Shown: piece after piece, positions 5,312 through 63,929 of the stretch
How the letters are laid out: each line of letters starts with the position of its first letter
Position numbering within the stretch: position 1 is the stretch's first letter
The notes under the pieces: model-generated
What the model saw: only the letters and a program-made list of their open reading frames with translations
Told to the model about the DNA's origin: nothing
Databases searched by the model: none
Assembly: GCF_963675165.1 (NCBI RefSeq)
Contig: NC_087386.1
Span: 5,214,169 to 5,278,168 of the forward strand
Origin: Halichondria panicea
Taxonomy: Eukaryota; Porifera; Demospongiae; Suberitida; Halichondriidae
Direction of reading: 5' to 3'
Length of the DNA stretch: 64,000 nucleotides
Program-made: the position numbers and the translations under genes

Positions 5312-6945
5312 ATGGTAAGAGTTCCTATAATAATAATAATTTACTGAAAATTCGGACTAGAGTCATGTGTGTCCACCTTACCTTGCAGACACACCTAATC
5401 AGCAATGATGGCTACACTTCTGTGGTCAAGATTGAACCCACCCCCTGCATGATGCCACACCCCCAAACTCATGGACCCCCTGTGGAGACGTACACGTACA
5501 CCCCAACACACCATTGGCCCACTACTCATCAATTACCAGCAACTCCAAACGAATATCCATTGGTTCCAAATGTTCCTCAACAAACTCAGCCGTATTCCAC
5601 ACTACGAATCAAAACAGAACCTACTGATTTTTCGGTTGTGTCTCAATTAAGACCGCGAACAAGTAGCTTCTACATACCCGCTGTGAAATCCAAACTCTCC
5701 ACACCTCTCCTAGATGGTCGCCTCCCATCAGCTTTGTGGGAGCCCAGTATGGAAGAGAGAAAAATGAGCAAGAGTGCACTAAAAGTGAAACGAAAAGTGA
5801 AACGAAGTGTAGAGAGTAAAGTGCTCAGACGAAATGCCAGAAAAGCTAGGTACAGGCAGGAACAATTACTACAACCACAAGAAGATCGTAGATTAAACAG
5901 TAAAGTGAGCGGGCTATGCTCATATTACAGGAACGATCCCTATAGTATTTTGCAAATTATTCTGGATCATTATACTCATGAGAAAATCATCGAAATCTAC
6001 GTGGCCGTGGTTCCGACTTCTAATATGAAAAGTTACGTAAAGCTATTGGTTAGGAATGGACTGTTGAAATTCAACCTAACCATTCCTAGCGCTATGGAAC
6101 CGGGTGCGTCAGGTACCAGTGGTCCATCACATACTCCTCAAATACCAGTGACTCAAAACGAATATCCACCAGTTCCGAATGCTCTCCAACAAACTCAGCC
6201 GTTATCCACATCACAAATCAAAACAGAACCCGTGGAGGCTTCGGTCACACTGCAAAGAGCTACTGATCCTCACACCCTCACACCTTCACAACTGCCCACT
6301 CACACCCTGCCCACGACTAGCTTCTTCACACCTGCTGTGAAATCCGAACTCTCCACACCTCTCCTAGACAGAAGCCTCCCACCAGCTTCGTGGGAGCCCA
6401 TTATGGAAGAGGAAAAAATGACCAAGAGTGCAAAAAGAAAGGCGAAACGGAGACTAAAGTTGGAGCAGGAAGACGAATGGCTTCAAAAAACACAAGAAGC
6501 TCGTGATTTAATCAAGAAAAAATTACTAAAACAACAAGAAACTAGTAAATTAAAGGTGAAAGTAGTAAATCTATGCTCACAGAACAAGGACAATCCTCAC
6601 AAGATTTTGCAAATTTTTCTGGAACATTATACTCACGAGAAAATCTTATTTTACTTGACTATCAAGTGTAAAATGAGACCATACATACAGCTTTTGATTG
6701 AAAAAGGACTGTTAGCGTTACACCTGACCATTCCTAGCGCTATAGACACCAATCAACCGGGACCATCAGATACGAGTGTTCCTCCTGTCACTCGATCACA
6801 TGGATGGAGCACTAATCAACCGGGACCATCAAGTACGAGTATTCCTGTCACTCGATCCCATGGATGGAGTGGGAATGATGCACAAGAGAGCAGCTGCAAT
6901 GTTGTGAAGATAGAGTTTCCATTAGCAGAACGTTATGAGCTTTGA
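5312..6945 (+). CDS. Unrecognised nuclear-like protein with duplicated module (paralogue of the 13080 gene)
   Basis: Exon 1 is only the ATG (5312-5314), followed by a 74-bp intron; exon 2 is 5389-6945, giving 519 aa. The gene at 13080 has the same layout, which supports this start. The protein holds two copies of one module. Each has a Pro-rich part with psi-K-x-E-P motifs (VKIEP, IKTEP), a PAVKS..LSTPLLD segment, a Lys/Arg-rich stretch, then a ~60-residue probably helical block (NPHKILQI.LEHYTHEKI...GLL.F.LTIPSA). The psi-K-x-E motifs fit the SUMO consensus, and with the basic stretches suggest a nuclear protein. A last VKIE lies near the C-terminus. I recognise no family. It ends shortly after the second module, while the paralogue runs ~900 residues further. 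Confidence 0.8.
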
Positions 6946-16000: not shown

Positions 16001-18119
16001 AACCCTCACCCGGTGACTCCGATCCCTCCATAGACCGTCTGTTGGATCTAATTGGTCAGTCATCAAACCCAGACCCACCCAATCAGCTGCCATTGGTGGA
16101 CCCAACTGACCAGCCGTTATTGGTGGACTTACCCGACCCGCTGCCATTGGTGGACCCAACCGACCAGCTGCCATTGGTGGACCCAACCGACCAGCTGCCA
16201 TTGGTGGACCCAACCGACCAGCTGCCATTGGTGGACCCAACCGACCAGCTGCCATTGGTGGACCCAACCAACCAGCCGCCATTGGTGGACCTACCCAACC
16301 AGCCATTATTGGTGGACCTACCCAACCAGCCGTTATTGGTGGACCTACCCGACCCGCTGCCATTGGTGGACCCAACCAACCAGCTGCCATTGGTGGACCC
16401 AACCGACCAGCCGCCATTGGTGGGCCCACCCAGCCAGGGCAGTGAGCAACAGGCTGACCTGGAAAGGGATGGCCATCAATCTCGAGGTGTGTGTACATAT
16501 AAATTGGAGAGTCCTTACCCACTGTAGACAGAACTAAAGTGTGTATTCTGTATCTAAGTATGTATATAATTTTATCGATAGTTTTGTGTGGTGGTGTATG
16601 ATGATGTATACATGTATAGACATTTATAGTCAAAAAGATGTATTAAGTTTTAAGGTTGAATGGAAGTTTGAAGTCAGATACAGATGAAAAAAGGGCTAGC
16701 TTGCTTAGCATACTCTCAAAAGTACATTTTCATTAGAAAAAGAATATAGACAAGTATACTTTTTTGAGATACTTTGTTTAACCCCACCCACCCCTGCAGA
16801 TACCCCGCCCTCCCCTGAACGTCCAGCCCACTCAGTGTTGCTACTCGAACCAGAACTACAGGACAATACTTCCATGCTCGAGCAAGCCTTCTCCATCCTA
16901 CCCTCACTTACAGAATGGCCAAAAGAAAGAACCTCAAAGAATAAAAAGCAAAACCAAAGCTCAACGAAAGCCAGAAATCATTGTAACACTGATACAAACT
17001 TGGATCAAGACTCGAGCAGTTGGTCTGACGAAGACGGAAGAATGGCTGTCGAAAATACTAAGAGAAACAAACCCAGTACGAAACGTTCGCCTCGAATTCA
17101 TCCGTTCACCTCTTCTGCAGCTAGCAATAATTCTGATCATAGCTCGAATGAGGACACTAGCAACTACACTGGCAGTGCTTCTCCGGTGAAAAAACAGAAA
17201 CCACAAATATTGCCTCAAAAGAAACAACCTGACCCCCTGTCAAGAACACAACCTCCCAGGGAGCAGGTTCCATCCAATCAGACGTCAGGTAGACTCTCTC
17301 CTCCTACTGGGAAAGACAAAAATACAAGTTCCGATATTGATATGGAACTGGGTTCTGATACTGATATGGAACAGGGCTCTGGCTCTGATACTGGTATGGA
17401 ACGGGACTCTAGTAAGCAGGCAGAGACCAAGCACACTAGAGACAGCTCCTCAGATATGACTCCGCCATCAAAGAAGCAGAGGGTCAGTCCAACAGGTGAT
17501 TCGACCCCCTCCCCTGCACACGCTGTTAGTGATGTCATCAATAATGTCGTAAATGCTGAAGAGGTCATAGACGTTGACGCTCTACCGGACATAATTGTAA
17601 TGGAGCATGTCAGTCCTTCGTCAGATACAGACGTGGATGTGGGTGGAAATTCACAATATCTCAGCCTCTTTTCACCCCAGGCTAAGATCGAGTGGTCACC
17701 AAAACGAATAGACAAAGACATTGCATCAGAAACAGACCAGGAACCAGCTGCTCGTAGGCAAATTGTTTTTCTTTCAAACAGTACAATGGATATTGCAGAC
17801 TCACAAGATTTACTAGTGGATCGGACGAAAAGGGCCCCCCAAAGTGATTTATTGAGAGGGACCTCCCACAGTGATTTATTGAAAGGGACCTCCCACGATG
17901 ATTTAGTGAGAGGGACCTCCCTCGGAGAGAATGAGATCGTGCAGGTGGTGGATAGTCCAGAGTCAGTAGCTGAGTCGGCAGTTTCAGCAAAGGGCAAGTT
18001 CTGTGTAACAATTTCATTTGTACATGTATAATAAACGCTCTAGTACATTAATTACACTGTACTGTCGCTTTTATCATTACTGTGTAAAATACTTTTGACA
18101 CTATCTTAACTCCCCCCCT

Positions 18120-33189: not shown

Positions 33190-33640
33190 GCTGAAGCTGA
33201 ATATTCGTGAAGCTTTGCCACTTGCTGACTAAATTCTATCCTGCTAGCGCTGCCACTAACTCCTAGATCTGCATCTGTATCAGCTACAGCGCAGCTTTGA
33301 GAGTTCTCTTTCCTGTTTAGTTTGCTGACTGGACTCTCTCTGGACTCTCCCCTGTCTGTCATAACCACACCCTAACTAATATTAACCCACATAATAGCTT
33401 GGAAAAGATCGTCCTTAGAACTAGGCTTTTTCCGTACTTCACTGGGCCACAAAGCCATCCAGGCATACACAGCAGGTCTACCTGACCATAACTTTTCCTC
33501 CTCTTCCTACAATGAAATTTTGTTTCTTAAAATCCCATACACCATAATGTAGTTAACACAGGTTGCAACATTTCACTTGGTGTACGCAAAAAATGGTTAT
33601 GTAAAACAATAAAAACTATAAATCAGACTACGTACGTCAA
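33190..33640. other. Intergenic
   Basis: No exon recognised. From ~33512 the sequence is shared with the start of the contig right of the N gap. Confidence 0.5.
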
Positions 33641-35993
33641 CTATTTAATCCACTTTGCAATAGTGTCTCTCTCCAGTTTCCTCGCCGCAATGACAGCTGG
33701 TGGGTCCTTGGGGTTGGCCGATCTAGACGGGAGAATCATACTTATGATAGAATTTCAGTTTTTAGTTAGTTAGGGATAATTATAGGTGGCATTTTCAAAA
33801 GCGTGCACAACGTCACACTAGAAGTGTAAGTGTGTATTGTACATTACCTCAGGTCCAAGTGGTGAGCTCCTCCCTCAATCATAATGGCTACCAGACTGTC
33901 AGAGAGATTCTGTTGCACCTGAAGAAAGGAGAGAAAAAAATTAGTGGCAAATCTATAACACTCAAATTCATAGTCAGATGTTGCTGTACATACACGCTGG
34001 AATGCATCTTTATAACCTAAGTGGGATATTGATAGTTGCCAGGGACATTGCTACAGGATTTAGTGGACCAGTTGACAGTCATGTAGTTACAGGTGATCCA
34101 GTATAGCTATGTTCTTATCATGTGTGCATATTACACAAGGTAGAGAGAGCTAGAGAGAGAGAGAGCACTCACCCCACCCACACTCCACGGGTCCAGGTTA
34201 CCATTGGAGAAGATGATGTTGGAGGCAGCCAGTATATCTGGAGGAACAGTAGGTGCACATAGTTGTAGCGAATCCACCAATGAAAGACTAGTTATCGAAT
34301 GCATGGGAATTACGTATGCATGGTAAACTAAATTCCACTTGCACACATTTAAAGCTTTCTAATGGCTGCATGTCTTGCTAGATGGTGAACTGCTACGTAC
34401 TTAATGGTAATAGTTATAAATCAGAGATTATAATAAGCTTCACTTTTCCCCCAGAATTGGGTGTCCATCCAGCCCTTCCGGTGTTTAGCTCCCCATGTTT
34501 TCTCGCAGTAAGCCGAGGGATCAAAGATTGTCGGGGGGAACATGTCTGTCATATTGTTTGTGTCACTGGGGAGGGACATCTCCGTGCACGCCTGAGCGGG
34601 TGGGAGGAGTGTGATGAGTGAAAATGCACCAAAACTGAACATACAAAAAAAAGACACACTAAACCGTGTAGCGAAATCAAGCCCTCGTATTAAGATCACA
34701 TATTGTTAGCCCGAGCTGACTCCCATCATTCTCAAACTGGAAGGTGTTCACCTTGGTGCAGGTGGTGATGCCTTCTCTACTATAAAAACGTTTTTTCCAC
34801 CTATTTTCATATACTTCCAACTTTTTGCATACATACATGTCATCAGTAAATACACAAGGAGTCTTTGCTAGATTGATGGATCTACACCCCCCCCCCACAC
34901 ACACACACACACACACCTGGTAGTCCCAGCTGGTGGCGGCGGGTCCTGTGCCACACCCAGTCGGGTCTGCACACTCGATAAACTGCGTCTCAATATTGTT
35001 ACAGGGCAGCCGGCCAGCCGTCCCATTGTAAAACAAACCTGCAAGTGTAATATTAGATAATTGGAGGAAAATGTCTTCAATTACCATCAAGCAAAAGCAA
35101 AATGGCAGCTAAGAGGCCAGTATACGTCCCACCCCTATACACGTACCTGCAGCCTGGGCCAGTCCCTTCAGTCGGTCAGTCGCCGTTAGCAACAGATTAC
35201 AGGAGTAGGACACAGGGTTGGCGGGGAGGGGGGCAAGGAAGTTGGCCGGGTATGGATAGTCAACCATTGCCAGCTGAGTGAACGAGTTCCGTACCCAACC
35301 CTCCAGGTGGGCCACCTACAAGATGGTGACTTATATATTGCATACATATCGACTTTAGGGTGATGATCACATGCAGGCAACTAACTACATGTATATACTG
35401 TCTGTAACATTGCAATTATTTAACAGAAAATGTTTCCAGGAAATGAAAGGTTCGATATAACAGTGGACAAGTGACGTCTATTAATAATGGTAAGTCTTCT
35501 GCACTACTTTACCATGAAGTATCTACATGTAGGTAGACAGTTGTATTGTACGTAATAAAAATCACTTACTCTGTCACTTTTGAGAGGTGTACACAGAGAG
35601 AAGGCATCAGTAATTTTCTGTAGCCCGGTATCTCCCTGTTTAGCCAGGTCTGCTATCATGGTGTAGGCCTCACGAACAAAGACAGGGCACTGACTGTTAG
35701 CCTTGGCAAAATCCTGAAGGAAACACAGTTATAGCACTCAAAAATACATATGTAACAGGCTAAGTTTCTTAGGAAATCAAGAAGGCTATAAAAAGTATCC
35801 GAGCCTTTGACGATATACATTTCCTGTAAGACAGGTGAATTATAGATAACAGTTATACATTATGTCAGGAGTACTCCAGATTATGTACATACCAAAGGTT
35901 GTTTATTTATAGCTTAATTTATCTTATGACATGTTAGATTCCAACCTGATGAACTAACCTGTGTGGCCTTCTCAAAGAAGGCGGTCCTGGGTG
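33641..35993 (-). pseudogene. Second, incomplete copy of the S28 peptidase (probable allelic contig end)
   Basis: It contains the 3' exons of the same S28 peptidase as at 36318-41249, from the stop (33641) up to part of the exon encoding [12 protein letters not shown], and then stops at the N gap. Coding sequence is nearly identical and intact. Introns differ by scattered SNPs and small indels, and by absence of the 531-bp repeat present in the other copy. It is better read as an allelic overlap than as a real pseudogene; no gene inactivation is seen. Confidence 0.8.
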
Positions 35994-36193
35994 NNNNNNN
36001 NNNNNNNNNNNNNNNNNNNNNNNNNNNNNNNNNNNNNNNNNNNNNNNNNNNNNNNNNNNNNNNNNNNNNNNNNNNNNNNNNNNNNNNNNNNNNNNNNNNN
36101 NNNNNNNNNNNNNNNNNNNNNNNNNNNNNNNNNNNNNNNNNNNNNNNNNNNNNNNNNNNNNNNNNNNNNNNNNNNNNNNNNNNNNNNNNNNNN
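35994..36193. other. Scaffold gap of exactly 200 N
   Basis: A round-number N run is typical of a scaffolder-inserted gap of unknown true size. Confidence 0.98.
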
Positions 36194-36317
36194 ATTTTGT
36201 TTCTTAAAATCCCATACACAATAATGTAGTTAACACAGGTTGCAACATTTCACTTGGTGTACGCAAAAAATGGTTATGTAAAACAATAAAAACTATAAAC
36301 CAAACTACGTACGTCTA

Positions 36318-39300
36318 CTATTTAATCCACTTTGCAATAGTGTCTCTCTCCAGTTTCCTCGCTGCAATGACAGCTGGTGGGTCCTTGGGGTTGGCCGATC
36401 TAGACGGGAGAATCATACTTATGATAGAATTTCAGTTTTTAGTTAGTTAGGGATAATTATAGGTGGCATTTTCAAAAGCGTGCACAACGTCACACTAGAA
36501 GTGTAAGTGTGTATTGTACATTACCTCAGGTCCAAGTGGTGAGCTCCTCCCTCAATCATAATGGCTACCAGACTGTCAGAGAGATTCTGTTGCACCTGAA
36601 GAAAGGAGAGAAAAAAATTAGTGGAAAATCTATAACACTCAAATTCATAGTCAGATGTTGCTGTACATACACGCTGGAATGCATCTTTATAACCTAAGTG
36701 GGATATTGATAGTTGCCAGGGACATTGCTAAGTAAAAACAGGATTTAGTGGACCAGTTGACAGTCATGTAGTTACAGGTGATCCAGTATAGCTATGTTCT
36801 TATCATGTGTGCATATTACACAAGGTAGAGAGAGCTAGAGAGAGAGAGAGCACTCACCCCACCCACACTCCACGGGTCCAGGTTACCATTGGAGAAGATG
36901 ATGTTGGAGGCAGCCAGTATATCTGGAGGAACAGTAGGTGCATATAGTTGTAGTGAATCCATCAACGAAAGACTAGTTATCGAATGCATGGAAATTACGT
37001 ATGCATGATCAACTAAATTCCACTTGCACACATTTAAAGCTTTCTAATGGCTGCATGTCTTGCTAGATGGTAAACTGCTACGTACTTAATGGTAACAGTT
37101 ATAAATCAGAGGTTATAATAAGCTTCACTTTTCCCCCAGAATTGGGTGTCCATCCAGCCCTTCCGGTGTTTAGCTCCCCATGTTTTCTCGCAGTAAGCCG
37201 AGGGATCAAAAATGGTCGGGGGAAACATGTCTGTCATATTGTTTGTGTCACTGGGGAGGGACATCTCCGTGCACGCCTGAGTGGGTGGGAGGAGTGTGAA
37301 AATGCACCAACATTTTACATACAAAAAAAAAGACACACTAAACCGTGTAGCGAATCAAGCCCTCGCATTAAAATCACGTATTGTTAGCCCGAGCTAACTC
37401 TCTCACTCTCACACTGGAAGGTGTTCACCTTGGTGCAGGTGGTGATGCCTTCTCTACTATAAAACTGTTCTTTCCATCTATTTTCATATACGTCCAACTT
37501 TTTGCATACACGAAGAGTCTTTGCTAGATTGATGGATCTACACCCCCCCCCACACACACACACACACACCTGGTAGTCCCAGCTGGTGGCGGCGGGTCCT
37601 GTGCCACACCCAGTCGGGTCTGCACACTCAATAAACTGCGTCTCAATATCGTTACAGGGCAGCCGGCCAGCCGTCCCATTGTAGAACAAACCTGCAAGTG
37701 TAATATTAGATAATTGGAGAATACAATTGAATTACCATCAAGCAAAAGCATGATGTAAAATGGCAGCTAAAGAGGCCAGTATACGTCCCACCCCTATACA
37801 CGTACCTGCGGCCTGGGCCAGTCCCTTCAGTCGGTCTGTTGCCGTTAGCAACAGATTACAGGAGTAGGACACAGGGTTGGCGGGGAGGGGGGCAAGAAAA
37901 TTGGCCGGGTATGGATAGTCAACCATTGCCAGCTGAGTGAACGAGTTTCGTACCCAACCCTCGAGGTGGGCCACCTACATGTATACAAGTGTGACTTAAT
38001 GAAATATTGCATACACGTACCTATCTACTTATAGGGTGATGATCTCATGCAGGCAACCAACTATAATTACGCTGTCTGTGACATTGCGATTACTAAGCAA
38101 AACCAGAAAAATTTCGCCAGAAAAAGGAAGGTTCGATATAACCTGGTCAATAAGGGCAGAGTATATACAGTGTAGGTAGACAATAAAACGATCATGTTGC
38201 ACTGTACGTAAATTAAGTTATAAATCACTTACCCTGTCACTTTTGAGAGGTGTACACAGAGAGAAGGCATCAGTAATTTTCTGTAGCCCGGCATCTCCCT
38301 GTTTAGCCATGTCTGCTATCATGGTGTAGGCCTCACGAACAAAGACGGGGCACTGACTGTTAGCCTTGGCAAAATCCTGAAGGAAAAACAGTTATAGCAC
38401 TCACATATGTAACAGGCTAAGTTTCTTAGGAAATCAAAAAGGCCTTTGACGATATACATTTCCTGTAAGAAATGATCATTGTGTGAATTATAGGTAACAG
38501 CAGGTCTGGAGTGGATTCATGCACTCCTGGTAACAGTTATACATTATGTCAGGAGTACTCCTGATACCAAAGGTTGTTATGCCTCGGTGCGCATGCGCAA
38601 GCGAGGTATATGGTAGTGTGTTTGTGTGTCTGTGTGTGTGTGTAGACTGCTACAGCTGCTTAAGGATGAATCAAGTGCAAGTAAGAGTTTCTATAGGCTT
38701 CTAGTCATGTTTACATTCGTGGATTTGGAAAATAATGCTTCATTCTCGAGTTATGCCTAGTTTTGCTTACTTGGAATGCCATTGCAGCCTTTTCAGAAGA
38801 GCACGTAGCCAAACTTGCTTACTGAGTGTTGCTACTCTACTTAGTAGTTAGCTCTGCACTAGAACGCTAGCTATTGGTAGCTGCAAGAGTGAGAAGAGAG
38901 CTGCAAGGCTTTGCTATTATGCAGCCATTAATTTTAGACTTGAACTTTTGGCATCGATCGTTTTTAACAACAATCATGGTCGATCATTACCCACTCTCAG
39001 AGTTTTTGCATGCAGCAAAATTAATCATGTGTAGATAAAAGCTATTAGTAGCTTTATGTTATGTAGCTTTGGCATCTCCACCGAGGCATCAGCACCTTCG
39101 GTGCTTTAATTTATTTATAGCTTAATTTATCTTATAACATGTAAGATTCCAACCTGATGAACTAACCTGTGTGGCCTTCTCAAAGAAGGCGGTCCTGGGT
39201 GTGATGCCACCTGCCACGATATAGATAGGTGCACTGGCGGCCAGAGCTCCGTCAACCACATTAGGGTACTTGAACCGGAACCATGCTGACAACATTCCAC

Positions 39301-41590: not shown

Positions 41591-44500
41591 ATGGCCGAAT
41601 CTACAGCATTAACACTGAATGCTGCAAGTTCTCCACAGTTGATGGAGCATAGACTCACTGATGCTGAAAAGGTATTTCACATGATAGACAGAAACTCAAT
41701 GATCAGTGCATTCTTCTAGTGCCTAGATGTATACTCTGTGTAAGTGTTGACCATGGCCATCCATAAACACACTTGGCATCATTTATTCATCACAGTATAG
41801 TGCCTAAACTCTACCCTGTCTGTGTGAGGTGTTTTATCTCATGTTATTGTTCTCTCCGCATGTACCACTCTCTACAACAGAAGGAGATCAGGGTATGTTG
41901 TGTTGCAATCACATTCTACCAAGCTGACATGTTTGCATGCTTGTGCTTTGAGCACTTGTTGTTAGGAGGTAGACTGTGTAAAGCAAGTGCACATACCGAT
42001 ATATAACTGCATGAATGTGACTATTCCTTAATTATGCCTCGAAGCGTACCCACACGAGGGATACGGTAAAGCTGACTGTGTGTGTGTGTGTGTGTGTGTG
42101 TCTGTTCCAGCTGTAACTGCTCAACAGTTGCAATGCGACAAAAACTAACAGCTTCTATAGGCTTCTAGCCACGTTTTCTTGGATTTTGATTCGTGGATTA
42201 GCAAACTAAAGCTTCTTTCTTGAGTTATGGCTATACTTAGACTCACATTGAAGGTTGTTGCAGTCTCTTCAGAATCTTTCATATAGCATCATCCGTTCGC
42301 ACAAACTTTCTGTTCAACGTAATTGCCTTGCACTAAAGCACTAGCTAACAAGGGTCAGTTATTAAGCAGCTACCTAAGTACTTAATCTCTTTGCAGACAC
42401 ACCCTTTACTAATTATTCCTGTGTATGTAATGCGCATGCGCGCTCATCCCACATGTTAGAATCCATAATCCAGTGGCAACTTACTTCTTTTTCTTGAGGT
42501 CCTGGTATACCGGTAAGCCACAATGATATACCATATAGACTAGATAACAATAGATGCATGTACATAAGTCTGGTAACAATAGATACATGTACACAAGTCT
42601 TTTCTCTGCTTGTTTAATATATGCTATACTACTGTCTGTGCTTTATATACTCTGTGCCTTTGACAAAGGTTTGCTCCCACTATTTGGCTACAGGCCATTT
42701 AACAGTTGCTTCAGTATCGTTGAAGATTATTCATCAAGCCATCAGATAGGCTTCTGCCATTCAGCTCCTCTCCTATAATGACTGTGTGTAATTCAATTCT
42801 GTTAACAATTGCAATCACAATAATAACATATAATTATACCTCTTCACCTCTTCCAATAGCGAAAGCAAAACAACGACGAGAGGCATTAGCACAGCGCAGC
42901 TTGCACCACTCGTTGAGACAAGTAGAGTAAGCATCAATTTTCAAGCGACAATCCAATTTTTTGCATACACAAAATAACAGATAACAGTGATCAGGTATTA
43001 TGCCTACCCTAATTGTAATCTGGTCGCTTTATTCGTGCACAGCGTAATCGACGTTTGCAACCTATTGCCGACTAGACTGTTGGGAAAATTTCTAAGCTTT
43101 ACTATGACTTTGTAGAGAACTATGGTACCTGCCATGCCTCATTCAATGATGTTCAGAAGTGCTGCTGCATACAACGAAAGGTGCAAAAAGGCCCCGGAAT
43201 GGTACTGAGTTAGCATGGATCCAGTTTTTGTGATAATAGCGTCATAGCAAAGCTTAGAAAAGTTTAGTCGGCAATAGGTTGCAAAGGGAAACATCAATTA
43301 GTTGAATGTTCAAACCACCAACTTTGAGCTAACATCAGGATTGTACTACTGTTGGAAATACAGCAAATGCCTAGTCAGACACCACTGCCCTCTACCAGAA
43401 TCAAGCCTATATTCACAGTTTTGTTCTGACCTGTTGCACAACAGTATCATGAATATCATTCATTCTATGTGGGTGTTGGCCAATAGCGATGAATTTTATT
43501 TAAAGGTGTTGGCCACGTTCTCAGTCAATTCAACCATGTGCAAAGTTGAGTGGGTGTAATCTAGATTACCGACCTCCTTCGGTGCAATGGTAGAGGGCGG
43601 CGACGCCAGACTATAGTAAATATGCCTGGGTATATTATCAAAAATATACCTTACCTAGACAGGCGTTGCTGCCCTCGACCGTTGTACGGAAGGAGGATGG
43701 GACCCAAGCTTTATTCGTGGTAAAATATTCGTGGCCATGCAGAACTTCAACCATGAGAATCCCGAAAATTACCAGCTACTATTAGTGTCTCTCCAAAGCA
43801 CTAAAAATGCGTTCCACTTGAAAATTGATTTGATCTACGTGTATAGTACCTGAAAGTATATGAATGAATTCTCTATCATGGTTAATTAAGTGTTCAGTCG
43901 GCACTAATGTTTTTTCCTTCTATTTCATGCATCTCCACCTCACCTTTGACTGACCCTCTGAAATAACAGCGTGTAAGTTAGTGTGTGTTGTCAGAGTTGT
44001 AATGTTTCTACTTTCCCATTATTACTCTTGTGTGCATAGTGTCATAGTGTTATGAATATTAATATAATTAGTATATGGTCATGCCCTCGTAATTATTCAT
44101 TTGCTTCCCACACGATTCCCCTGTGGACTCTCTCTCTCTCTGGATCAACAGAATGTAAGTTGTGTTTGCACGTGCACTTATTATACTGTAGGTAGGAATT
44201 AATTGTTAATTTGCATACTGTAACTTGGTATAGCCGAGGCGCCCAAAATCTGTTATAAGCTGTGGTTTAAGTTAAATGGTACATTATCGTTTTTGTCTCT
44301 TCCCATGCATGCCTATTGGACCATGATTTGGACTACTGTAGGAGGTGAGCTTCTTGAGTATACTTAATGTCCACACACTATAAAATGGTTCAGCTGCAAT
44401 GTGCTGGTTACCTAGCATCACTAGAGTGCATGTGTCCTTTGTTCTCTAGAGCTGGCCCTGGCCCTCTCCCTCAGTTACCCCAGGTGTAGGCACCGATTAC

Positions 44501-47500
44501 GCATGCTCGAAATTTTTCCCAAATTTCCGACAATTTACATGTACCTAAAATTAGTGTGCCATCCAGATCCCACTTGTTGCATGCTATGTATAGTCAGTAC
44601 CAGTGATCAACTTATTTTATGTCTTTATTTATTTATTTATATTTTTTATTGTAAATTAATCTCTTCCTTACATGTACCATTATTTTGATGTGTCTCAGGA
44701 AATACTGCAGGTATGTTGTGATTGTTCGTGTATGTCATGCTAGTGCTCGTTAATTAATTGTATTGTGCGACACAGCAAAAGAATAATCAAAGTTGTGCAT
44801 GCATGTAAGATGCTTGTTGTACCGTTTATCGTCCCTTCCACTGGACCCACCCACACTGACCTTTCTATTATATGCCATTGCATGCATGCTAGTACTGAAT
44901 ATATACCTGTGTGTATACCGAGTCACTACCAGTGTTCATGACATTTTACTCTCTCCTTACATGTACCCTCTGTGGACTCATTACTCACAACAGTATGTGA
45001 GTTTATTGTTGATCACGATAATTATAGACTTACTTGTAATAATAATATACATGTACTATGCTGCATGAAGACAGAAATCTGTGAAGCCAAACTTTCTATT
45101 AGTACGTGTACATGTATAATGCTCTTGAAATGTTATGCTGTTACAGATGTGCAATAATTGATGTATATGTGTGTTTTCATTGTGTATTTAAACGTGTTTA
45201 TTTTTCTACATGTTCGTTTCCTCCTATACTAACAACAGAATGTAAGTTTCAATGTGCAGACATATATATCAATGCACTCACTGCTCTCCCCCTCTCTTTG
45301 TTTCCATGTGTGTCTGGCGCTGGTGTTGTCAATTGACTAAACAGAAGGTGAGCAGGGCACTGCACTATAGCTAACTTGTGACTATAATATACTTGTGTCT
45401 GAGTTGGCATGAGTACATGGTATGCATTTGTCGACAAATGCTTAACTATCAACAATACTTAACTATCAACATGTCGTGACATATAAAGTGTACAGGTTTG
45501 TGATTTATATTCTTTCTCTCTCCATAAATTTCCGCGGTTGCTGAATATCTGGAACGATAGGAAGTGAGTCAAACAATGTTGGTGTACACCTCATGTGCAT
45601 TCAGTTTGTACATGCCCTATGCACTGATTGCTCTTATATTGAGACAACTCCATATATATTAGTGACCACAAAACACAGTTTGACTCACTGTTGTCTTGTT
45701 CATCTTGTCCAGAGTAAGGCTGAGTATAAGAGTGACCTGAAGAGTCATGAGACGGTAAGTGTGTTGAATTGACAGCTGCACACTATTATACTCTCGTGCT
45801 AAGAGTGGTACGCGTATAGTCTAGCAGAACGACAATGTGTGTACATGTACTGTCCATTGTATGATGAGAATAGTTGCTCTTTGTAAGTCCACTTGGCGAT
45901 TTCGTGAAATTAAGGTGACAAACGCCAATGTTTTAGCTTGATACTCAGATCAATAATACCATGCAGCATGACTACAAATTAAAAATTGCAAACCCCATTC
46001 GCCAAATCTTGCTAAATTTACCCGCTATACGGTAGGTTAGTAGTTGCTGACCTTTGTACAATTTTATACATGTGCATGCAATGGGGATTAGCTTTATGTT
46101 CTATATTTTGTGGAATGTTCATTCAGTCGTCTATTTTTACTCCCTTAGAGAATTGCTGCCCTCCAACAGAGACTGTCTGGTGACATCACTGACCACGACC
46201 AGAAACAACTGAAGAGAGAGCTGGAGGAGGTGGAAGGGAAGATCAAGAACTGTGTCACAGAGATAAAATGGCATAAGAGCGTGATACATGACTTGGAGAA
46301 TAAGATTGCTAAGACACAAGGAGAAGCAGAAGAGAGAGTACGACAGAGAAAAGAAGGTGAGGGGAGCATAGAACTTATGTACAGTGAGCGTTCATGGACA
46401 TATTGTACATGTTATAGGGGAATAGTCTTTCTGCTTGAGAAAGTAGTTGCAATTACTCGTACCTTACATATAGCAGGGGCGTAGCTACCATTGTTTCCTG
46501 GTTGCCCAGAAACCCCCCCCCCCCGGAGCTGCTGAGAAAATTGGGCAGGGCTCCCCAATAATTGAAATGAAGCAGCCATGCCCATCTTTTCATGCACGTG
46601 GCTGCAAATTATATGTCAATCATCAGAGATAGCACCGTGAATCGTTTCACTTTGGCTAGCTTGGTCTCAGCTAGCTAGCTAGCTACCTCAAACAAAAAAG
46701 ACCAAGACTTAAGTTCTAGTATCAATCCTGCATGCTCCAGTATTCTCAGACTCAGCTCTAAGCACAACTTTATTCGATATTCAGGAAGGACAAGTTTAGA
46801 ACAATCTTAGCCACATGAAACCTCTCAGGTAAATGTAATGGTGCTCAGCTAGACTAGCAATACACAATTGACACCTGCCTTTAGAATGTCTATAGCTAGC
46901 TAGACTAGCTAGCTAGCTTCTCACAAACATGTAAAAAAAGTCATTACGAACAATGAGCAGTAGGTGTAACCAGTAGGTGTGCCCCAATCAATAGGGTGTG
47001 GTACCGAAAGTGGGCGTGGTCAAAAATTCCGCGGCGCGGTAACCCCTGTGTCAAAAGTCTGGCTACGCCCCTGTGTAGTGTTTTATTATAGTAGATTATT
47101 GTACGTACAGCTGTTGTGTCCTTAATATTGTGTTTGTGGCCCTTTGAGACACTGCACACTAACTTATACTTAGTTACACAGCCTTAGCTATATATCATAG
47201 GTACTATAGCATGAAAAATCACTCGGTGTAACCTCTATAGCTACTTCACGACAATCAATTTCTTGTGAAAAATTCCCATCAGGTGGCATATGTTTGTTTA
47301 AAAGTACTGGAGGGGTCTTTGGGAGGACACAATAACTTCGTAGGTCGAAACATGGATGGCATGGGATGGGCCACTACGTATACTTCAATGTATAGAAGCA
47401 TCACGTGAACCACTTCTGTCCCCTTCTTCTACTACTTTATAATTATGATCAGAAAACAATCAAACTTTTCCTATGCCTTTTCTTACTATCTAGGCAACCG

Positions 47501-50500
47501 ACTAGCTACTGTATGTTTGGTTAGTGAGGCGTACTATAGAATATCCCTCTACTGTGCATGTGTTTTACTGCATGTGTACTTATAGTGACATCATCCGTAG
47601 CATATTCTTGCACATAATAATCACATTATTCCCTGTCGTTGGTGGGTAACATCATAGTCCATCTTGTCACCTAGTATTGCATAGTTGACATTCCTAACAC
47701 CACCACATACACACATCCTGTAGAATCGAAGCGATTATTTGATGAGGCAATGAAGCACGGACACGTCTCAGTTAACATTGTCAACATGCTCATGTTTGGA
47801 CCGGCGGGAACAGGGAAGACCAATCTCAAGCACCTGCTAACTGACAAGCCCCCTCCACTACAGCGAGACAGTACCTCGTGTATGGAAAAGCCAGTACGCA
47901 TTCGACCTGTGTCCAACTCGAAATTCAAGACAACTGGAAGAGGCTGGGTAGAGATGTCTCAGCCAAAGTTGCTCGATCTACTAGCTCAAATCATTGCCAA
48001 GTTACCAAAAGAAAGCACCGATCGATCCACGGCATTAAATGTTGCCGAAAGCTTGAAGAAGATGACCACAACCAAGCCAATTTCTGGTCCTAATGAGCAC
48101 TTTTCTGATTTTTCAGATGCTGATTCCAGTTCAATCCAATCAAGTAACGATTCTGCTAGAATATTTGACGAAGCCATCGATGAAGTGATAGCAAGTGTAG
48201 TGAGTGGTGTGGCAGAAAAGCTGAAGCCAGCCACACAGGAAACTGACCAACTGTCGAGCAGTGACCAGCAAGAAGGAGAACTATTCGATTCTAACTGGGT
48301 GTACATTACCGACTGCGGTGGACAGCCTCAATTCCACGACATCAGCCCTCTCTTCATCAAGCACATTTCGGTGGCGTTGATAGTCCTGCGTTTGATTGAC
48401 GAACTCTCCAGTTTCCCTTCTGATGAGTACTACAAGGATGGACGGCTTGTGGGTAGTCCTCACACATCTCACATGACCCTCGGGGAGACAATTCAGAGTC
48501 TTATTCGATCGATTGAGTCCCATACCTCACACGACAATAAACCAAAGATGATTTTTGTGGGCACATTCTTGGATCAGCTGGAGGAGAGCTCAGATACACT
48601 TATCAAGAGGAATAAAGAGATTCTCAACATGCTGCCACCCGATATCCAGAAGCTATTGGTGTACAACGATCTTGGAATGAACAATCTGATTTTTGGCGTT
48701 AACACAATCAGCCGAAATGACGATTCACTGGCCACTGCCGATGGGATAGGATTTGCTGTTGAGCATTCTATTTCGCTACAAGTCGAAGTACCCATCTGGT
48801 GGTCCTTCTTGGATTCACTTCTCCAGGGTTTATCTTCCAGTCTCAAGCGAGGTGTACTAAGCAAGCAAGAATGTCTTAAATTAGCCGCTCGATTTGGTTA
48901 TGTACGCGAAGATCTTGAAGCTGCTCTAGTCTTCTTTGACGATGTGTGTATAGTGCACTACTATCCCTCCATTCTCCCCAACACAGTGTTTGTGGATGCC
49001 CAGATTCCACTAGATAAGATCACCGAGCTCTCACAGCACGCCATCTCCCTGAGGACGGCTGAAGTCAAATCACCTTCTACTCTAAGCACAGGTGTGATCG
49101 ATGCCAAATGGAAGATGCTTCGAGATGAGGGCATAATCACTTTGGAATTTCTACGACGTTTCGAGAAACATTACGTTGACGACCTCTTTTCTCCCGAAGA
49201 TCTGCTATTGATAATGAAAAAACTTCTTGTGATTGCTCCGATTCCTCTAGTGGAGTCCCCTACCCAAGCCAAGTTCTTCATGCCATCTTTACTCAAATCG
49301 ATCCAACCTACTGAGCTAGACGAAATTCGTTCCTCCTTCAAAATATCACCCTTTGCTGTCTACTTTCGTAGTGGGTGTATTCGCTCTGGAGTCTTTTGCT
49401 GTCTAATTGTGGACGTGATCAAGCAGGTGGGCTGGCAAGTTTTACTTGCAGGGAAACCAATTTTGTTAGCTAAAAATTGTATCCAGCTAAGAGTTCCCAA
49501 GCTCCCGTGTACTGTAACTCTGATCGACTCCTTCTCGTATATCGAAATTTACATCAACATCCCTCTTTCTTATCGCAATGAAGTATGCCCTACGATTCGC
49601 AATGAAATTTTGAACAGCATAAAATTATCCTGTACAGAGTTGCATTACAACAACGACATACCCGAGATAGGTATCTTTTGCCCATGCACGAAAAGCACTG
49701 GCAAATTGCACCTTGCTGGTTTGAGCAAACGGAAGGACTATTGGATATGCTCCCAAGCAGATGAGTGGGGAGAGCTCAGTGACAAAGATAGAATCTGGCT
49801 GGACAATAACGAAGGTTCTGGTGAGTACAGTGGTTAATAAAATTGAAATTAACTTTCTCAATTAGGTGTATCCTCTTCTGCTACGGGAGATATGTGCAGT
49901 ACAAAGAGTGCTCAGCAGCAACAATCTGGTAAGCATAAATACTGTATATGTATGTATGATTTCAAGGGTATAAATTTTCGCGGAAATACCGTTAGAATGG
50001 TTTTCGCGGAATAGCTCCCTGTTTTGCAGCATGCATGCATGTGATAATAAATTTGTGGGTATAAATGTTTGCGGTACATGCTTAATCAGCGAAAACCACA
50101 AACATTTAATAATTATACCCGTTATACGGTAGCTCTATTCTGATTAATTACCGCATCAGAAAATTTGCCAGGTATTATATTTGGTAAATGAACTGGCTTG
50201 GCCATTTTTTACTTTGGCGTCTCAAGCGTGGCTACTGCTGCAATGATGTTGTGTCCACTGGAAAACTTTTGCGATCTTTGGTCCAAATTAAAACACCCAC
50301 CAAATATTCCAGTTATAATTCGTAATTTTAATTTAGGATTGAATTTCATATTTTTCCTTCAGATAAATTGCAATCATCTTCTGTAATGGAAGATGTGTGC
50401 AGGAAGACTGGAGTGACTGATCAACAGCTTGATCAAGAAATCCCCAACAGTGATATCATATTAGTAGCAGAAAAATTCCAAGCAACTCCTAACCTGCTCG

Positions 50501-50730
50501 ATCGACTCAACCTCACCCCAGCCGACCTCGGTGATGTAACTGATGTCAGAATTCGTTACGGCAATCAAGCTGGAGTGGCCCACGCATTGAGAGTGTGGCA
50601 AAGAGTAAATCCTTCCAGAGCTACCTTCAGGGCCTTGGTGGAAATTGCCATAGGACTGAGAAGAGGAGACACTGCTACAGACATTTGTAAATTCATTGTA
50701 GAGAATACGAATTTAACTGACCAAAACTGA
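41591..50730 (+). CDS. Coiled-coil + ROCO-like GTPase + death-domain protein
   Basis: Firm exons: 41591-41671 (MAESTALTLNAASSPQLMEH), 41881-41892, 45713-45754, 46149-46356, 47724-49820, 49866-49928, 50363-50730 (stop). Small exons between 41893 and 45563 are described separately; with 42500-42513 and 42860-42926 included, everything stays in phase (~994 aa). The 42860 exon reads more like coiled coil in another frame, so that part is unsure. 45713-46356 encodes a coiled coil (RIAALQQRL, LKRELEEVEGKIKN). The large exon has a P-loop GPAGTGKT (~47798), a switch-II-like DCGGQPQFHD and a G4-like VGTFLD, typical of Roc GTPases. A COR-like part follows (PIWWSFLDSLL, FDDVCIVHYYP, NTVFVDAQ). The last exon is a death domain (VWQRVNPSRATFRALVEIAI). 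Likely a cytosolic signalling or innate-immune protein. Confidence 0.78.
42030..42400 (+). mobile_element. Diverged relative of the HINE-like family
   Basis: Starts ATTATGCCTCGAAGCG, then a TG microsatellite, CTTCTATAGGCTTCTAG and TTGAGTTATGGCTA, in the same order as in 38579-39109 but strongly diverged. The right end is unclear. Confidence 0.55.
43054..43285. mobile_element. MITE with ~50-bp inverted ends in ROCO gene intron
   Basis: TTTGCAACCTATTGCCGACT at the left is inverted at the right (GTCGGCAATAGGTTGCAAA). The inversion continues through TTCTAAGCTTTACTATGAC. Confidence 0.75.
43573..43696. mobile_element. Short palindromic element
   Basis: CCTCCTTCGGTGCAATGGT...GGGCGGCGACGCC at the left is inverted at the right (GGCGTTGCTGCCC...GTACGGAAGGAGG). 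Flanking 43305-43560 resembles 51405-51570 (shared AATAGCGATGAA, TGTTGGCCACG, TCAGTCAAT). Confidence 0.65.
43970..45563 (+). other. String of apparent 3-nt and 12-nt microexons
   Basis: Between 43970 and 45563, strong acceptors are followed after exactly three bases by strong donors: 43970-43972 CGT, 44152-44154 AAT, 44342-44344 GAG, 44994-44996 TAT, 45239-45241 AAT, 45345-45347 AAG, 45561-45563 GAA, each flanked by CAG or TAG and GTAAGT, GTGAGT or GTGAGC. A 12-nt unit (44699-44710, encoding EILQ) has the same layout. Pyrimidine tracts precede nearly all. All are phase 0, matching the following exon at 45713, and would spell R-N-E-EILQ-Y-N-K-E before SKAEYKSD. No transcript evidence is available here. 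Confidence 0.55.
45893..46034. repeat. Partial TACCGTATAGC-family copy
   Basis: Ends TTTACCCGCTATACGGTA. The left end is degenerate (CTTGGCGATTTCGTGAAATT). Intronic. Confidence 0.5.
49968..50132. mobile_element. TACCGTATAGC-related foldback in the intron before the death-domain exon
   Basis: Left AAGGGTATAAATTTTCGCGG, right ATTATACCCGTTATACGGTA, with inner GCGAAAACCACAAAC inverted repeats. Confidence 0.65.
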
Positions 50731-50842: not shown

Positions 50843-51060
50843 AAAAATTGTATCCCGCTAAGAAAGCTCCCGTGTGCCGTAACTCTGATTGATTTCTTCT
50901 CATATATCGAAATTACATCAACATCCCTCTTTCTTATCGCAAAGAGGAATGCCCTAAGATTCACAATACAACGAACAGCATAAAATTATCCTGTACAATA
51001 TTGCATTACAACAACGACACACCCACATCCGAGATAGGTATCTTTTGCCCAGCCTTTTCA
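50843..51060 (+). pseudogene. Duplicate fragment of the ROCO gene's GTPase/COR exon
   Basis: GCTAAAAATTGTATCC through GAGATAGGTATCTTTTGCCC matches 49469-49683 of the intact exon, with indels that break the frame. It lies ~110 bp after the intact gene's stop codon. It is followed at 51070-51148 by a fragment of the same foldback repeat found in the intact gene's next intron, so the duplicated block included repeat sequence. Confidence 0.85.
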
Positions 51061-55941: not shown

Positions 55942-58151
55942 TCAGTTGTCACTAGCAGTGGTGACTGTGACCGAGGAGAGCAACTCCGCCAGGAAGACAT
56001 CTGGGTTGTTAATAGCAACCAGCAGCCCTGCACGACAAAGCAAAAACATCAAAAACATAATATTTAAAATGAAGTATACTCTTGACAGCATACATGAATG
56101 ATTCCAACAAAAGAGGTATGTCACATGGTTTATGTACAAGTCACATGACTCACCCATGACATCAAGAAACTCTTGGAAGGACTCACAAGATTGCACCTCA
56201 TCTTGGAATTCTGTCAACAGCTGCAGCAACAGATCGAACCATGATTAGAATGGACAGGCCTTTTCCCAATAGAATGGAAGCTATGGAATGTGCTGACACA
56301 GTAATTAGTTTTCCTTATCGGAGTCTGTGTGGGCATTTTTACTATCACTGCCATGTAAAATTGATGATTTTTACAAGGTCACCAAGTTTATAAGGATGCC
56401 AAAAGAAAATTTGAAGCATGCTGTATTAAATGCACTAAGTTTGATGTTCTAAATCAAAACTACACCAGAGTTACATAGCCTGGTCAAGTTCTAATGTAGA
56501 ACTCGTTTAGCTGAGTCAGCGAGTGGCTAGGCTTGAACATGATTGCGATAACCGCAAACACAACAATACTATAGCTAGCTGCTTAAAAGAGTTCCTTCCA
56601 TAAAAAACTGCATGCCTTGAGCTGTGCCACCTTTAATGAATCTCTGAATAATGGTCACGAGAAAAGCACTGAAGAGTAGTTCAAATTTTATCAATGCTGC
56701 ATGTGTAGTATATTCAGTGCTGTTCCTGCTAACATGACTACATCAGACCAGTACTAGTGTAGAGCAAGCTCCAAACATTTTTTTTGGCATCATTATAATT
56801 ATTAGGTAATTGCTACTAAATGAATTTGGTGACCTGGTAAAGATCATCACAGCTGTACCTTGTCGCTAGCTTCCAGCACGGTGCTATCATTGGTCCGGAC
56901 GTGCTCCAGTAGAGCTGTGGGCAGGTCACTACCAGACACTGACAGTGTGGTCTTGAGGACTCAATGTAGACTGTCCACTAGTGAGAACATCATTAGCAGC
57001 GGCTTGTACACCGAGAACTCTGCTGGGGAGGACAAGGAGAGGCTGTGGGGGACGTATGTGGGTGGGGCCATGGATGAATGAGTGTATGTGTGTGTGGGTG
57101 AATAATAAAGCCAGTCACTATAAAATTATCATAGTTTAAAAAATATTTCGAAGATTTGTTGGCTGGCTTAATTAAAGAGTACGGATTAATTAACTACAAT
57201 ATTAATGGGTCTCATCAGATCTAGAGATGTAGTACCATGGACCCACCTCTTGATGAGGGAGGAGCTACTGTTCCTGGCATGGGCTAACACTAACAGTCTC
57301 TTGAGGAGGGTGGTCCGATGCTCCTCCCACTCACTCAACGACTGGATGAACAGTGACACCACCAGCTGGTACTGGGGACTGTCCAACTAGTGGGGGAGGG
57401 TGGCAAAGGTCAAGAGCAAGCCACGTACTATAAAAAGCGTACCATAAAAAGCGTTTTGCCATTAAGAGTAACATACAGTAGAAGGTGCAGCAATAATTAT
57501 TATGGCTATTGTGCATACGCTGACATAATTATTACTATTATAGCAAACAATACTTAGAGTGTAAGGTTGACATTATTTGTAACCACTTGTGTTCATCTCG
57601 TAAGCGGAGGAGACCCAAGTGTCAGGAGCAGCTGCCAGGAAGGTTGCTAGGTTCCTCTCCTCTCTCTGGTAGCAGTGACTCCTGTGCAGGGTGGGAGCAG
57701 AGCAAACTATTAGGTATAAATTGTAAGTCCCCAATAAGAGGGTATAAGAGGGCATTTTGAGCTTAGAATGCACTGAAGAGAATAACGTATTGCTTACTAA
57801 CAAACAAAACTTATCCCACACAAGCCAAATCTTTTTAACGCCTAAAAGAAAGCTAAAAAATGGGCACTGCAGACAATAATTATAATCAAACTTTTGAGAA
57901 GACAGATTAATTCGCTTACACGTTTAGCACACAGATTACATTTAGTTAGTGCTCACAGGTTCATGACGTGTGCTCCAACATGAAGGTAGTAGGGGAGCAG
58001 GTGCATGTTGCTCTGTGGACCACCCCCTCCACTTTCCCCACTGAAGGACTTCTCGTACGCAAACCGGACCAGAAGTAGTCGAATGTCGTGAGCGAGGGTA
58101 TGGAAGGAGGGGTCAAATAGTCCGGTACGCTCTTGTAGGTAGCTGTGGAAC
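55942..58151 (-). pseudogene. UBR4-like E3 ligase C-terminus, copy C (inactivated)
   Basis: Minus-strand exons: ~58151-57960 (FHSYLQERTGLFDPSFHTLA ... LHVGAHVMN), ~57682-57598 (SHCYQREERNLATFLAAAPD), 57386-57247, 57042-56859, 56220-56154, 56027-55942 (stop). The ending LLTEFQDEVQSCESFQEFLD..NNPDVFLAELLSSV matches my recollection of the UBR4 C-terminus (EASEKL..F..E..P.ESF.EF.DV..L..I.DPD.FL.DLL). UBR4 is a giant N-recognin E3 ligase. Two lesions are visible against the sister copies: CGA to TGA after DSLH, and a donor GTGAAC changed to ATGAAC after SSAYE. Upstream exons are absent. Confidence 0.72.
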
Positions 58152-58679: not shown

Positions 58680-59627
58680 CGAACGATTCAAACAAAATGG
58701 GTATGTCACATGGTTTAGGTACAAGTCACATGACTCACCCATGACATCAAGGAACTCTTGGAAGGACTCATATCACACTAGACAATAACGTTACCTCTTT
58801 AACAGCATAATACGTGTACCACTTTAGGGAATAGTTTACTTTAAGATGGTATGATTATAGCACGAGAACACAATAGACAAAAGAAGGTGAAGACTTTCAT
58901 TAAACTGAATTTTACCAGAAAATATCCTAAAACAAATTCATAATATTAAAGTCATACACACAGAGCTGTATAGCAACAAGCTGCAGCAACAGATCGAACC
59001 ATGATTAGAATAGACAATAACAAATTATTTAACGGCATAATACTTTTACCACTTTAGGGAATAGTTTACTTTAGGATAGTACGATTATATCACGAGGACA
59101 AAAGAAGGTGAAGACATTCGTCTCTATGATAAGAATGTGCTCTAGTACTTTAGTGAAGGGAACCAAACACCGAAAGGCATCAACATCAACAACAAAATCA
59201 GATACCGTATTACTAGAATGTTTTGCGGGTGAACAACCTTTGCGAATGAGCCAAATCAGCAGAAAATTTGACTCTTTGCGATCTAACTATTGCGTTCTGA
59301 CAAGGATACATAATATACACAACGTACTTTTCGGGCCAACTTGTCTAATATTGCATCCATCGAACACTCGATCCAACAAAATATTTATAATACAGATAAT
59401 AATAATAATTATGTTTACATGTGTTTATTAATGGCAGCTGTACCTTGTCGCTAGCTTCCAGCACGGTGCTATCATTGGTCCGCACGTGCTCCAGTAGAGC
59501 TGTGGGCAGGTCACTACCAGACACTGATAGTGTGGTCTTGAGGACTCGATGTAGACTGTCCACTAGTGAGAACATCATTAGCAGCGGCTTGTACACCGAG
59601 AACTCTGCCGGGGAGGACAAGGAGAGG
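58680..59627 (-). pseudogene. UBR4-like C-terminal fragments, copy B
   Basis: 59627-59444 is an intact copy of the SSPAEFSVYKPLLMMF exon with its R codon preserved. The next exon is broken: 58680-58771 matches its 3' end and donor, 58972-59023 matches the flank and acceptor side, and the coding middle is replaced by ~200 bp of unrelated sequence, itself tandemly duplicated (58779-58900 versus 59017-59115). Confidence 0.7.
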
Positions 59628-60191
59628 CTGTGGGGGACGAATAATAAGGCTCATAATCCAACAAATTGTTTCATGTGTTGGCTGAAGTACAGATTAGCTT
59701 CAACATAGGATTATCAGGTCAATTATAATTGGGTATAGGTGGCAGGAGTAAAGTGTATCCAATAGAGAGATGTAGTTAACTATCTATATAGGTATGGGTG
59801 TGGTTGTACGGTGTGTGTGTTAATTCCGTGCGTGCACAGTGTGTCTACCTGCAAGCATATATGTACTTAGTGCATAGTTGTGTCCTCTATCTCACACTTG
59901 CATGGTAGTGATGATCAAAGTCCTCCTCACACACTCTGCATGGAAGCTGAGAAGCTCTTTAGAAATTCAACACTTCTAGTTTAGCTTTCTCACCAAGATT
60001 GACAAGCTGCAAATTATAAGCATTTATATATGCAACTACATGTGCACACACCTTTCCAATCTAAAGGTAAAACAATTGTTACCGTGCACACTGAAACTGA
60101 ATTTTGAAGGAATGCATCATAATTATAGATATAGCTACATAGAGTCATATTATATAGTTTTACCAGTCGTGCATGTGCATGCAGAGGTAGT
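59628..60191. other. Intergenic
   Basis: AT-rich; nothing recognised. Confidence 0.4.
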
Positions 60192-62777: not shown

Positions 62778-63145
62778 TATTGGGGCAGGATATAAAAATA
62801 GGATGACAGTGTGGGATAATAAAATTATTGATCATGGTATCAGTGAGGGTCTTGAAAGCCAGCTTTACTGTCAGTATGTTCAGGTATATATAACTCTGGA
62901 GTATGAAGTCAATAAAGCACAAACACTCCATCATGCACAGCACTTAGATATAATATTATATCATGAACTTACCTCTTTGTGTGGCTGAGTAACTAGTCCC
63001 TGGGGTCTGAGGTACTGAGGAAAAAAGAAGTTGTTAAACCTCATTTACAACGAAATATTGTTACGTTCGCCCTGATTGTGCAAGGAGGATGAATCAATGT
63101 AACTAGTTTCAACATAGGATTTTCAGGACAGTATATATACACTTA
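62778..63145. other. Intergenic
   Basis: No feature recognised. Confidence 0.4.
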
Positions 63146-63146
63146 G

Positions 63147-63929
63147 TGCTATCATTGGTCCGGACGTGCTCCAGTAGAGCTGTGGGCAGGTCACTACCAG
63201 ACACTGACAGTGTGGTCTTGAGGACTCGATGTAGACTGTCCACTAGTGAGAACATCATTAGTAGCGGCTTGTACACTGAGAACTCTGCTGGGGAGGACAA
63301 GGAGAGGCTGTGGGGGGTATATGTGGGTGGGGCCATGGATGAATGAGTGTATGTGTATGTGTGTGTGAATAATAAAGCCAGTCACTATAAAATTATCGTA
63401 GTTCAAAAAATATTTCGAAGATTTGCTGGCTGACTCAAAAGAGTACGGTAACTACAATTACAATATTAATGGATCTCATCAGATCTAGAGATGTTGTACC
63501 ATGGACCCACCTCTTGATGAGGGAGGAGCTACTGTTCCTGGCATGGGCCAACACTAACAGTCTCTTGAGGATGGTGGTCCGATGCTCCTCCCACTCACTC
63601 AACGACTGGATAAACAGTGACACCACCAGCTGGTACTGGGGACCGTCCAACTAGCGGAGGAGGGTGGAAAAGGTCAAGAGCAAGCCACATACCATAAAAA
63701 GCGTTTTGCCATTAAGAGTAACATATACAGTAGAAGGTGCAGCAATAATTACTATGGCTATTGTGCATATGCTGACATATTACTATTATAACAAACAATG
63801 CTTATAGTGTAGGGTTGACATTATTTGCATCCACTTGTGTTCACCTCGTAAGCGGAGGAGACCCAGGTGTCAGGAGCAGCTGCCAGGAAGGTTGCTAGGT
63901 TCCTCTCCTCTCTCTGGTAGCAGTGACTC
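63147..63929 (-). pseudogene. UBR4-like C-terminal fragments, copy A (runs on past window end)
   Basis: Minus exons 63929-63845 (SHCYQREERNLATFLAAAPD, donor GTGAAC intact), 63650-63511 (GPQYQLVVSLFIQSLSEW, intact) and 63307-63147 (SSPAEFSVYKPLLMMF, truncated before VLEASDK and its donor). No downstream exons follow in the window. Confidence 0.68.

Follow-up and report, generated by a model that had tools for sequence, protein, structure and literature searches.

A probable array of single-codon exons encoding a diversified helix in a family of ROCO-like genes of Halichondria panicea

The gene described here lies on the plus strand of a 64,000-nucleotide stretch of Halichondria panicea DNA, the whole of which was analysed and is referred to below as the window. 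Its predicted parts are listed below; exons I1 to the 42-nt exon were placed from the sequence and by paralog comparison, and the basis for the others is given in brackets.

41591 to 41671, plus strand: exon 1, MAESTALTLNAASSPQLMEHRLTDAEK, 81 nt, phase 0 (sequence; homologous start exons in paralogs)
41881 to 41892, plus strand: exon I1, 12 nt, KEIR here (paralogs XXI(E/K)), codons 1-2 hypervariable
43970 to 43972, plus strand: exon X1, 3 nt, CGT = Arg here, hypervariable
44152 to 44154, plus strand: exon X2, 3 nt, AAT = Asn here, hypervariable
44342 to 44344, plus strand: exon E, 3 nt, GAG = Glu, almost invariant
44699 to 44710, plus strand: exon I2, 12 nt, EILQ here (paralogs XXI(E/K)), codons 1-2 hypervariable
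44994 to 44996, plus strand: exon X5, 3 nt, TAT = Tyr here, hypervariable
45239 to 45241, plus strand: exon X6, 3 nt, AAT = Asn here, hypervariable
45345 to 45347, plus strand: exon K, 3 nt, AAG = Lys, invariant
45561 to 45563, plus strand: exon Z, 3 nt, GAA here (Glu, Lys, Arg or Asn), semi-variable
45713 to 45754, plus strand: 42-nt exon, SKAEYKSDLKSHET, with variable codons 1, 4 and 5 continuing the heptad register
46149 to 46356, plus strand: coiled-coil exon (43 genome matches)
47675 to 49837, plus strand: ROCO-like GTPase exon within an open frame, with P-loop GPAGTGKT and DCGGQPQFHD (Pfam Roc below cutoff)
50332 to 50730, plus strand: open frame, probably the last exon of the gene (sequence)

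The two 12-nt exons, at 41881-41892 and 44699-44710, form part of the array and were absent from the earlier note on this DNA. The predicted insert between exon 1 and position 45713 comprises 45 nt (AAGGAGATCAGG CGT AAT GAG GAAATACTGCAG TAT AAT AAG GAA), and the full splice between these points would read KEIRRNEEILQYNKE. The third-last residue of exon 1 also varies between paralogs, in the same register as the variable residues of the array.

The P-loop GTPase-like exon resembles Roc, with the P-loop and DCGGQPQF visible in its sequence and a Pfam Roc score of 13.4 bits, under the cutoff of 27. No Pfam match to a COR domain was obtained in the predicted protein of the gene. Single-sequence folding of the GTPase exon gave a pLDDT of 34, too low for use, and a death-domain reading of the C-terminal exon, made by eye, was dropped, as neither Pfam nor PDB sequences supported it and the model was of low confidence. 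Downstream of the gene, the end of the ROCO-like exon recurs as a partial second copy at 50860-51060, probably a pseudogene fragment.

Elsewhere in the window, a near-identical tandem duplication (33531-34020 and 36208-36697, about 2.7 kb) lies beside minus-strand frames that resemble, by eye, an S28-type serine carboxypeptidase, and a gap of 200 N is present near 36000. An open frame at 15961-16527 contains an array of VDPTDQLPL-type repeats. Three related open segments (56833-57081, 59409-59708 and 63109-63381), two on the plus strand, both with SLASSTVLSLVRTCSSRAVGRSLPDTDSVVLRT, and one on the minus strand, are perhaps a repeat family.

A search of the window for YAG-NNN-GTRAGY returned seven matches on the plus strand, all at 43967-45569, and a single match on the minus strand, at 6298. 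Shuffling gave a chance level of 4.6 per 64 kb with both strands summed, which corresponds to approximately 0.06 sites in 1.6 kb of a single strand; by the same arithmetic, the Poisson probability of at least seven sites in 1.6 kb is of the order of 1e-13. The earlier note had claimed seven acceptor-NNN-donor sites within 1.6 kb, all in phase 0 and rare by chance. All seven exist and are the only plus-strand ones in the window, each is a whole codon in phase 0, and their rarity is borne out by the shuffle. The preference for three bases is also evident on the sense strand of 35 loci of the gene family (173 kb), where an AG/GT spacing of 3 nt occurs at 241 sites and no other spacing between 0 and 15 nt at more than 13; zero-length ratchet points, in which the acceptor abuts the donor, were not found in these loci (0 sites at gap 0). 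Genome-wide, the surplus of the 3-nt spacing (N3 3674 versus N4 3049) was dominated by repeats and therefore uninformative, and a tandem family on contig C1 carrying CAG-ACT-GTGAGT turned out to be a normal exon end with no microexon.

Searches of the genome (131 Mb in 39 contigs, one assembly) gave 43 matches to the coiled-coil exon (46149) and about 60 to the ROCO-like exon (47675), the close ones of which are clustered on contigs C10 and C13. By these matches, the array belongs to a ROCO-like gene family with 43 or more members. Together with the copy in the window, 34 others were compared over their 5' regions, which makes up the 35 loci mentioned above. Between exon 1 and the coiled-coil exon, the order and lengths of the array (12, 3, 3, 3, 12, 3, 3, 3, 3 and 42 nt) are kept in 30 of these 34, so that very short symmetric exons of 3 or 12 nt, each with an AG acceptor and a GT donor, recur in all of the 30. 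In three of them (L028, L036 and L057) one exon each was overlooked by the automatic anchors and recovered on inspection, except for I1 of L028, which was not located; X2 of L057 had been concealed merely by a variant donor. The idea in the earlier note that the array tunes the length of the coiled coil finds no support in this comparison, as it is residue identity that varies instead of the number or length of the exons. The other four copies (L035, L048, L050 and L055) have part of the array deleted, with no assembly gaps there. Three of the four retain an intact ROCO exon, and the whole array is therefore not indispensable; some copies of the family may be pseudogenes.

Several further arrangements were noted in the genome. 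Additional copies of the array, lying outside the 43 coiled-coil matches (L064, L065, G000 C10:623751 and C10:2451651), all have ACT at X1. In L029, the GAG exon and its flanks are tandemly duplicated 272 bp apart (2252 and 2524 bases from the end of the locus), which would give one residue more if both were used. In a distant ROCO relative on contig C6 (L066, minus strand, 5951-3700), a coiled-coil-like exon follows candidate microexons of 12 nt (SNIA) and 6 nt, located where an intron segment is duplicated; this arrangement may be an older version of the array or a parallel one. Upstream of other ROCO subfamilies, no 3-nt sites were found on C14 or C8, nor in the C6 relative. A comparison of the two 7-residue units of the array for intron segments duplicated from one to the other gave only short matches, and such a duplication was rejected. 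The genome search revealed no retrocopy or intronless paralog with the spliced sequence, and no stray host DNA was found in prokaryote or viral contigs.

The seven triplets fall into four that are hypervariable, one that is semi-variable, and two that are fixed (Glu and Lys), and all of them are set in introns that hardly differ between paralogs. The mean pairwise difference of the aligned 120-nt flanks is 2.5-9% (91-98% identical), and nucleotide differences in the codons at variable sites amount to 6 to 26 fold those of the local flanks. The copy in the window is itself an outlier, with flanks 7-26% from the closest relative. A pattern search for the X1 site recovered 46 genomic copies on two contigs, 39 of which have zero mismatches across 29 flanking bases, and the codon itself takes 14 forms among the 46. 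Its diversity by codon position is 0.71, 0.75 and 0.06, whereas the 30 nt upstream have a diversity of 0.008. When 2326 aligned triplet windows were compared, the hypervariable ones coincided with the exons, the few exceptions lying at indels or where the alignment has ragged ends. With changes mapped onto an intron-based tree, each of the first two codon positions of a variable residue requires 10 to 18, compared with a maximum of seven in 1583 intron columns, and the mean ratio of changes between the two is approximately 24. In the same set, the fixed triplets GAG and AAG show zero changes, and the variable codon positions use all four bases. As in MHC genes, nonsynonymous change at a defined surface, one face of the helix, thus greatly exceeds the neutral rate (ratio 24), and diversifying selection on the variable codons is well supported.

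The triplets also behave as translated codons. In 296 variable codons there are no stops, whereas 11.5 would be expected from shuffled columns. The four variable 3-nt exons alone contain no stop, compared with 3.4 expected (p 0.016), and a single proline, compared with 5.2 expected (p 0.008), these and the other shuffle p-values ignoring shared ancestry, a concern that is limited by the low divergence of the introns. Pairwise codon differences at the variable sites are almost never synonymous. When the exons are joined in order, the variable residues of the array are 1, 2, 5, 6 / 8, 9, 12, 13 / 15, 16, 19, 20 and the conserved ones are 3, 4, 7 / 10, 11, 14 / 17, 18, 21. With all exons in place, the period of residue entropy peaks at exactly 100 degrees, the angle of an α-helix (p = 5e-5, the floor being set by 20,000 permutations), and at this angle the variable residues lie on one face of the helix and the conserved ones on the opposite face. 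The helical period is weakened or lost when E, E and K, X1 and X2, or K and Z are dropped (p 0.07-0.88). A weaker periodicity remains when every 3-nt exon is dropped (p = 0.005), so that the periodicity test by itself leaves an isoform skipping all of them possible. The variable residues are rich in Arg, Trp, Asn, Asp, and Tyr, a composition familiar in binding surfaces. The earlier suggestion of single-codon exons is strongly supported by sequence evidence, namely the codon-like behavior of the triplets and their conserved order and lengths.

Along the array, the nearest relatives of the flanks change from site to site, as if introns had been exchanged between paralogs. For example, L037 and L040, whose ROCO exons are 44% identical to that of the window, share 98-100% intron identity around several exons with L041 and L042, for which the corresponding value is 75-78%; by simple arithmetic, the ROCO exons of the two pairs are at most about 70% alike. 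At X2, the codon TGG is coupled to the donor GTTAGT in five of five genes, a donor found in none of the 30 others, and these five have several different downstream intron haplotypes. This pairing suggests that a very short tract was transferred or that selection acted repeatedly. From site to site, the variable codons are nearly in linkage equilibrium, and the sharing of codons is tied to the sharing of flanks at X5, I2, codon 1 of the 42-nt exon and, weakly, X2, with no general link. As the link is seen at some sites only, codon-by-codon exchange between paralogs is possible, albeit unproven.

We consider it probable, at roughly 85%, that the triplets are genuine, constitutive single-codon exons encoding a diversified recognition helix before a ROCO-like GTPase. 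The seven triplets, the two 12-nt exons, and the 42-nt exon would be joined to encode a continuous N-terminal α-helix some 29 residues long. One face of the helix would be fixed (Ile, Glu/Lys, Glu, Lys, and Ala) and the opposite one hypervariable, with each of the 43-plus genes having its own set of residues on the latter. The variable face is probably a recognition surface, for immune or self/non-self purposes, that would be read out by the GTPase part; the function of the gene is most simply read as that of a diversified recognition helix coupled to a GTPase switch that reads it out. The likeness of the introns would be maintained by exchange between paralogs and the differences between codons by diversifying selection, and a very short conversion tract seemingly carried at least one codon from one gene to another. 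With the 29 codons spaced by introns over several kilobases, reassortment would be eased. From the sequence we infer the splicing, the role in recognition, and the notion that this architecture serves codon reassortment. A further step, which we regard as possible yet rather doubtful, is germline (or even somatic) diversification with single codons as the units of exchange among some 45 receptors, in which one-codon exons inside conserved introns would let short conversion tracts reassort residues singly and yield, without V(D)J recombination, a combinatorial surface like that of antibodies.

It is unlikely that the triplets serve as alternatively spliced cassettes, from which one gene would derive many helix lengths and phases. 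Every exon is symmetric and in phase 0, and the frame would therefore survive any subset, but the helix register is weakened or destroyed by skipping single or paired exons, the exon number is constant in 30 of the 34 other copies, and the diversity between genes is one of codon identity. Unlikely, too, is the proposal that the exons are real and owe their hypervariability to targeted mutation rather than to selection on point mutations and conversion. The limitation of the changes to codon positions 1 and 2, a few bases from the splice signals, would fit such targeting; the fixed Glu and Lys triplets, however, share this splice context and are unchanged, all four bases occur at the variable positions, and the absence of stops and near absence of proline speak for selection.

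How exons of three bases would be spliced bears on another proposal. Those whose last base is mostly not G (X1, X2, X5, X6, and Z) have the donor GTAAGT or GTGAGT, and the small exons whose last base is always G have GTATGT, GTACGT, or GTGAGC. The donors of the hypervariable exons therefore need no help from exon bases. Since two splice complexes would hardly fit on 3 nt simultaneously, splicing is probably stepwise, via recursive points that each leave one codon, a route that the earlier note had raised and that is reasonable on these grounds, with strong donors independent of the exon bases. Zero-length ratchet points are excluded because the AG-GT gap is always exactly three bases, which behave as codons. 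It has to be considered whether the triplets are lost altogether, such that the mRNA would hold just the two 12-nt exons and the triplets would be recursive points or decoys for the removal of a long intron. An adjoining acceptor and donor are a hallmark of recursive splicing, and the frame and some helical periodicity survive without the 3-nt exons (p = 0.005). Yet this is very unlikely, as the triplets behave as codons (no stops, proline depleted, synonymous differences nearly absent), their positions 1 and 2 are hypervariable amid nearly invariant surroundings, and it takes the full set of triplets for the helical period to reach its greatest strength and to fall at exactly 100 degrees. Moreover, the introns of the array are short, about 100-930 nt in L026, so that ratchets would be unneeded. 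Finally, an origin of the pattern in chance, assembly, or alignment is hardly conceivable, for, short as three-base matches are and repeat-rich as the genome is, the 3-nt gap has 241 sites against at most 13 per other gap in 35 loci, the X1 site recurs in 46 separately placed copies on two contigs with near-perfect flanks, and the inspected copies are gap-free.

Microexons, diversifying selection, and gene conversion are each known, and their combination, as it appears in the single-codon exons of this family, is one for which we could find no known match. In schistosomes, the micro-exon genes (MEGs) contain many consecutive symmetric microexons and have a variable product, the variation arising from exon skipping. 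The array shares with them the run of symmetric microexons and the variable product; in contrast, MEG exons are mostly longer and are skipped, whereas here the exons are fixed and the codons paralog-specific. In the MHC and venom toxin families, there is a nonsynonymous excess in exons, introns are more alike than exons, and gene conversion takes place, all of which resembles the present case, but their variable residues share ordinary exons, whereas many of those described here stand one per exon, in heptad register and on one helix face. As in recursive splicing with ratchet points, the acceptor adjoins the donor inside what would otherwise be a single intron, and removal is probably stepwise; the difference is that three codon-like bases are retained here and that the introns are short. 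One-codon exons are rare; with canonical splice sites on either side, they are known from RPS24, where three microexons (3, 18, and 22 bp) follow one another and the 3-bp exon is alternatively spliced (PMC11162997), from Ncam, with a 3-nt exon (cited in PMC8042270), and from Drosophila homothorax, with an alternatively spliced 3-bp exon (PMC7392893). In contrast to the one 3-bp exon of each of these genes, the array has seven among nine small exons, and the codon differs among dozens of paralogs. In open-access papers, where absence is no proof, we found no series of one-codon exons, no hypervariable ones, and no counterpart of the array.

If confirmed, the array would mean that the spliceosome is able to join a long run of 3-nt exons, and it would provide a test of how such exons are recognized. 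Annotation pipelines unable to place 3-nt exons would mis-annotate the genes that contain it. It would also represent a new way for a genome to lay out a diversified protein surface, the variable codons being set in conserved introns, and would make this gene family a candidate animal recognition system, either immune or self/non-self.
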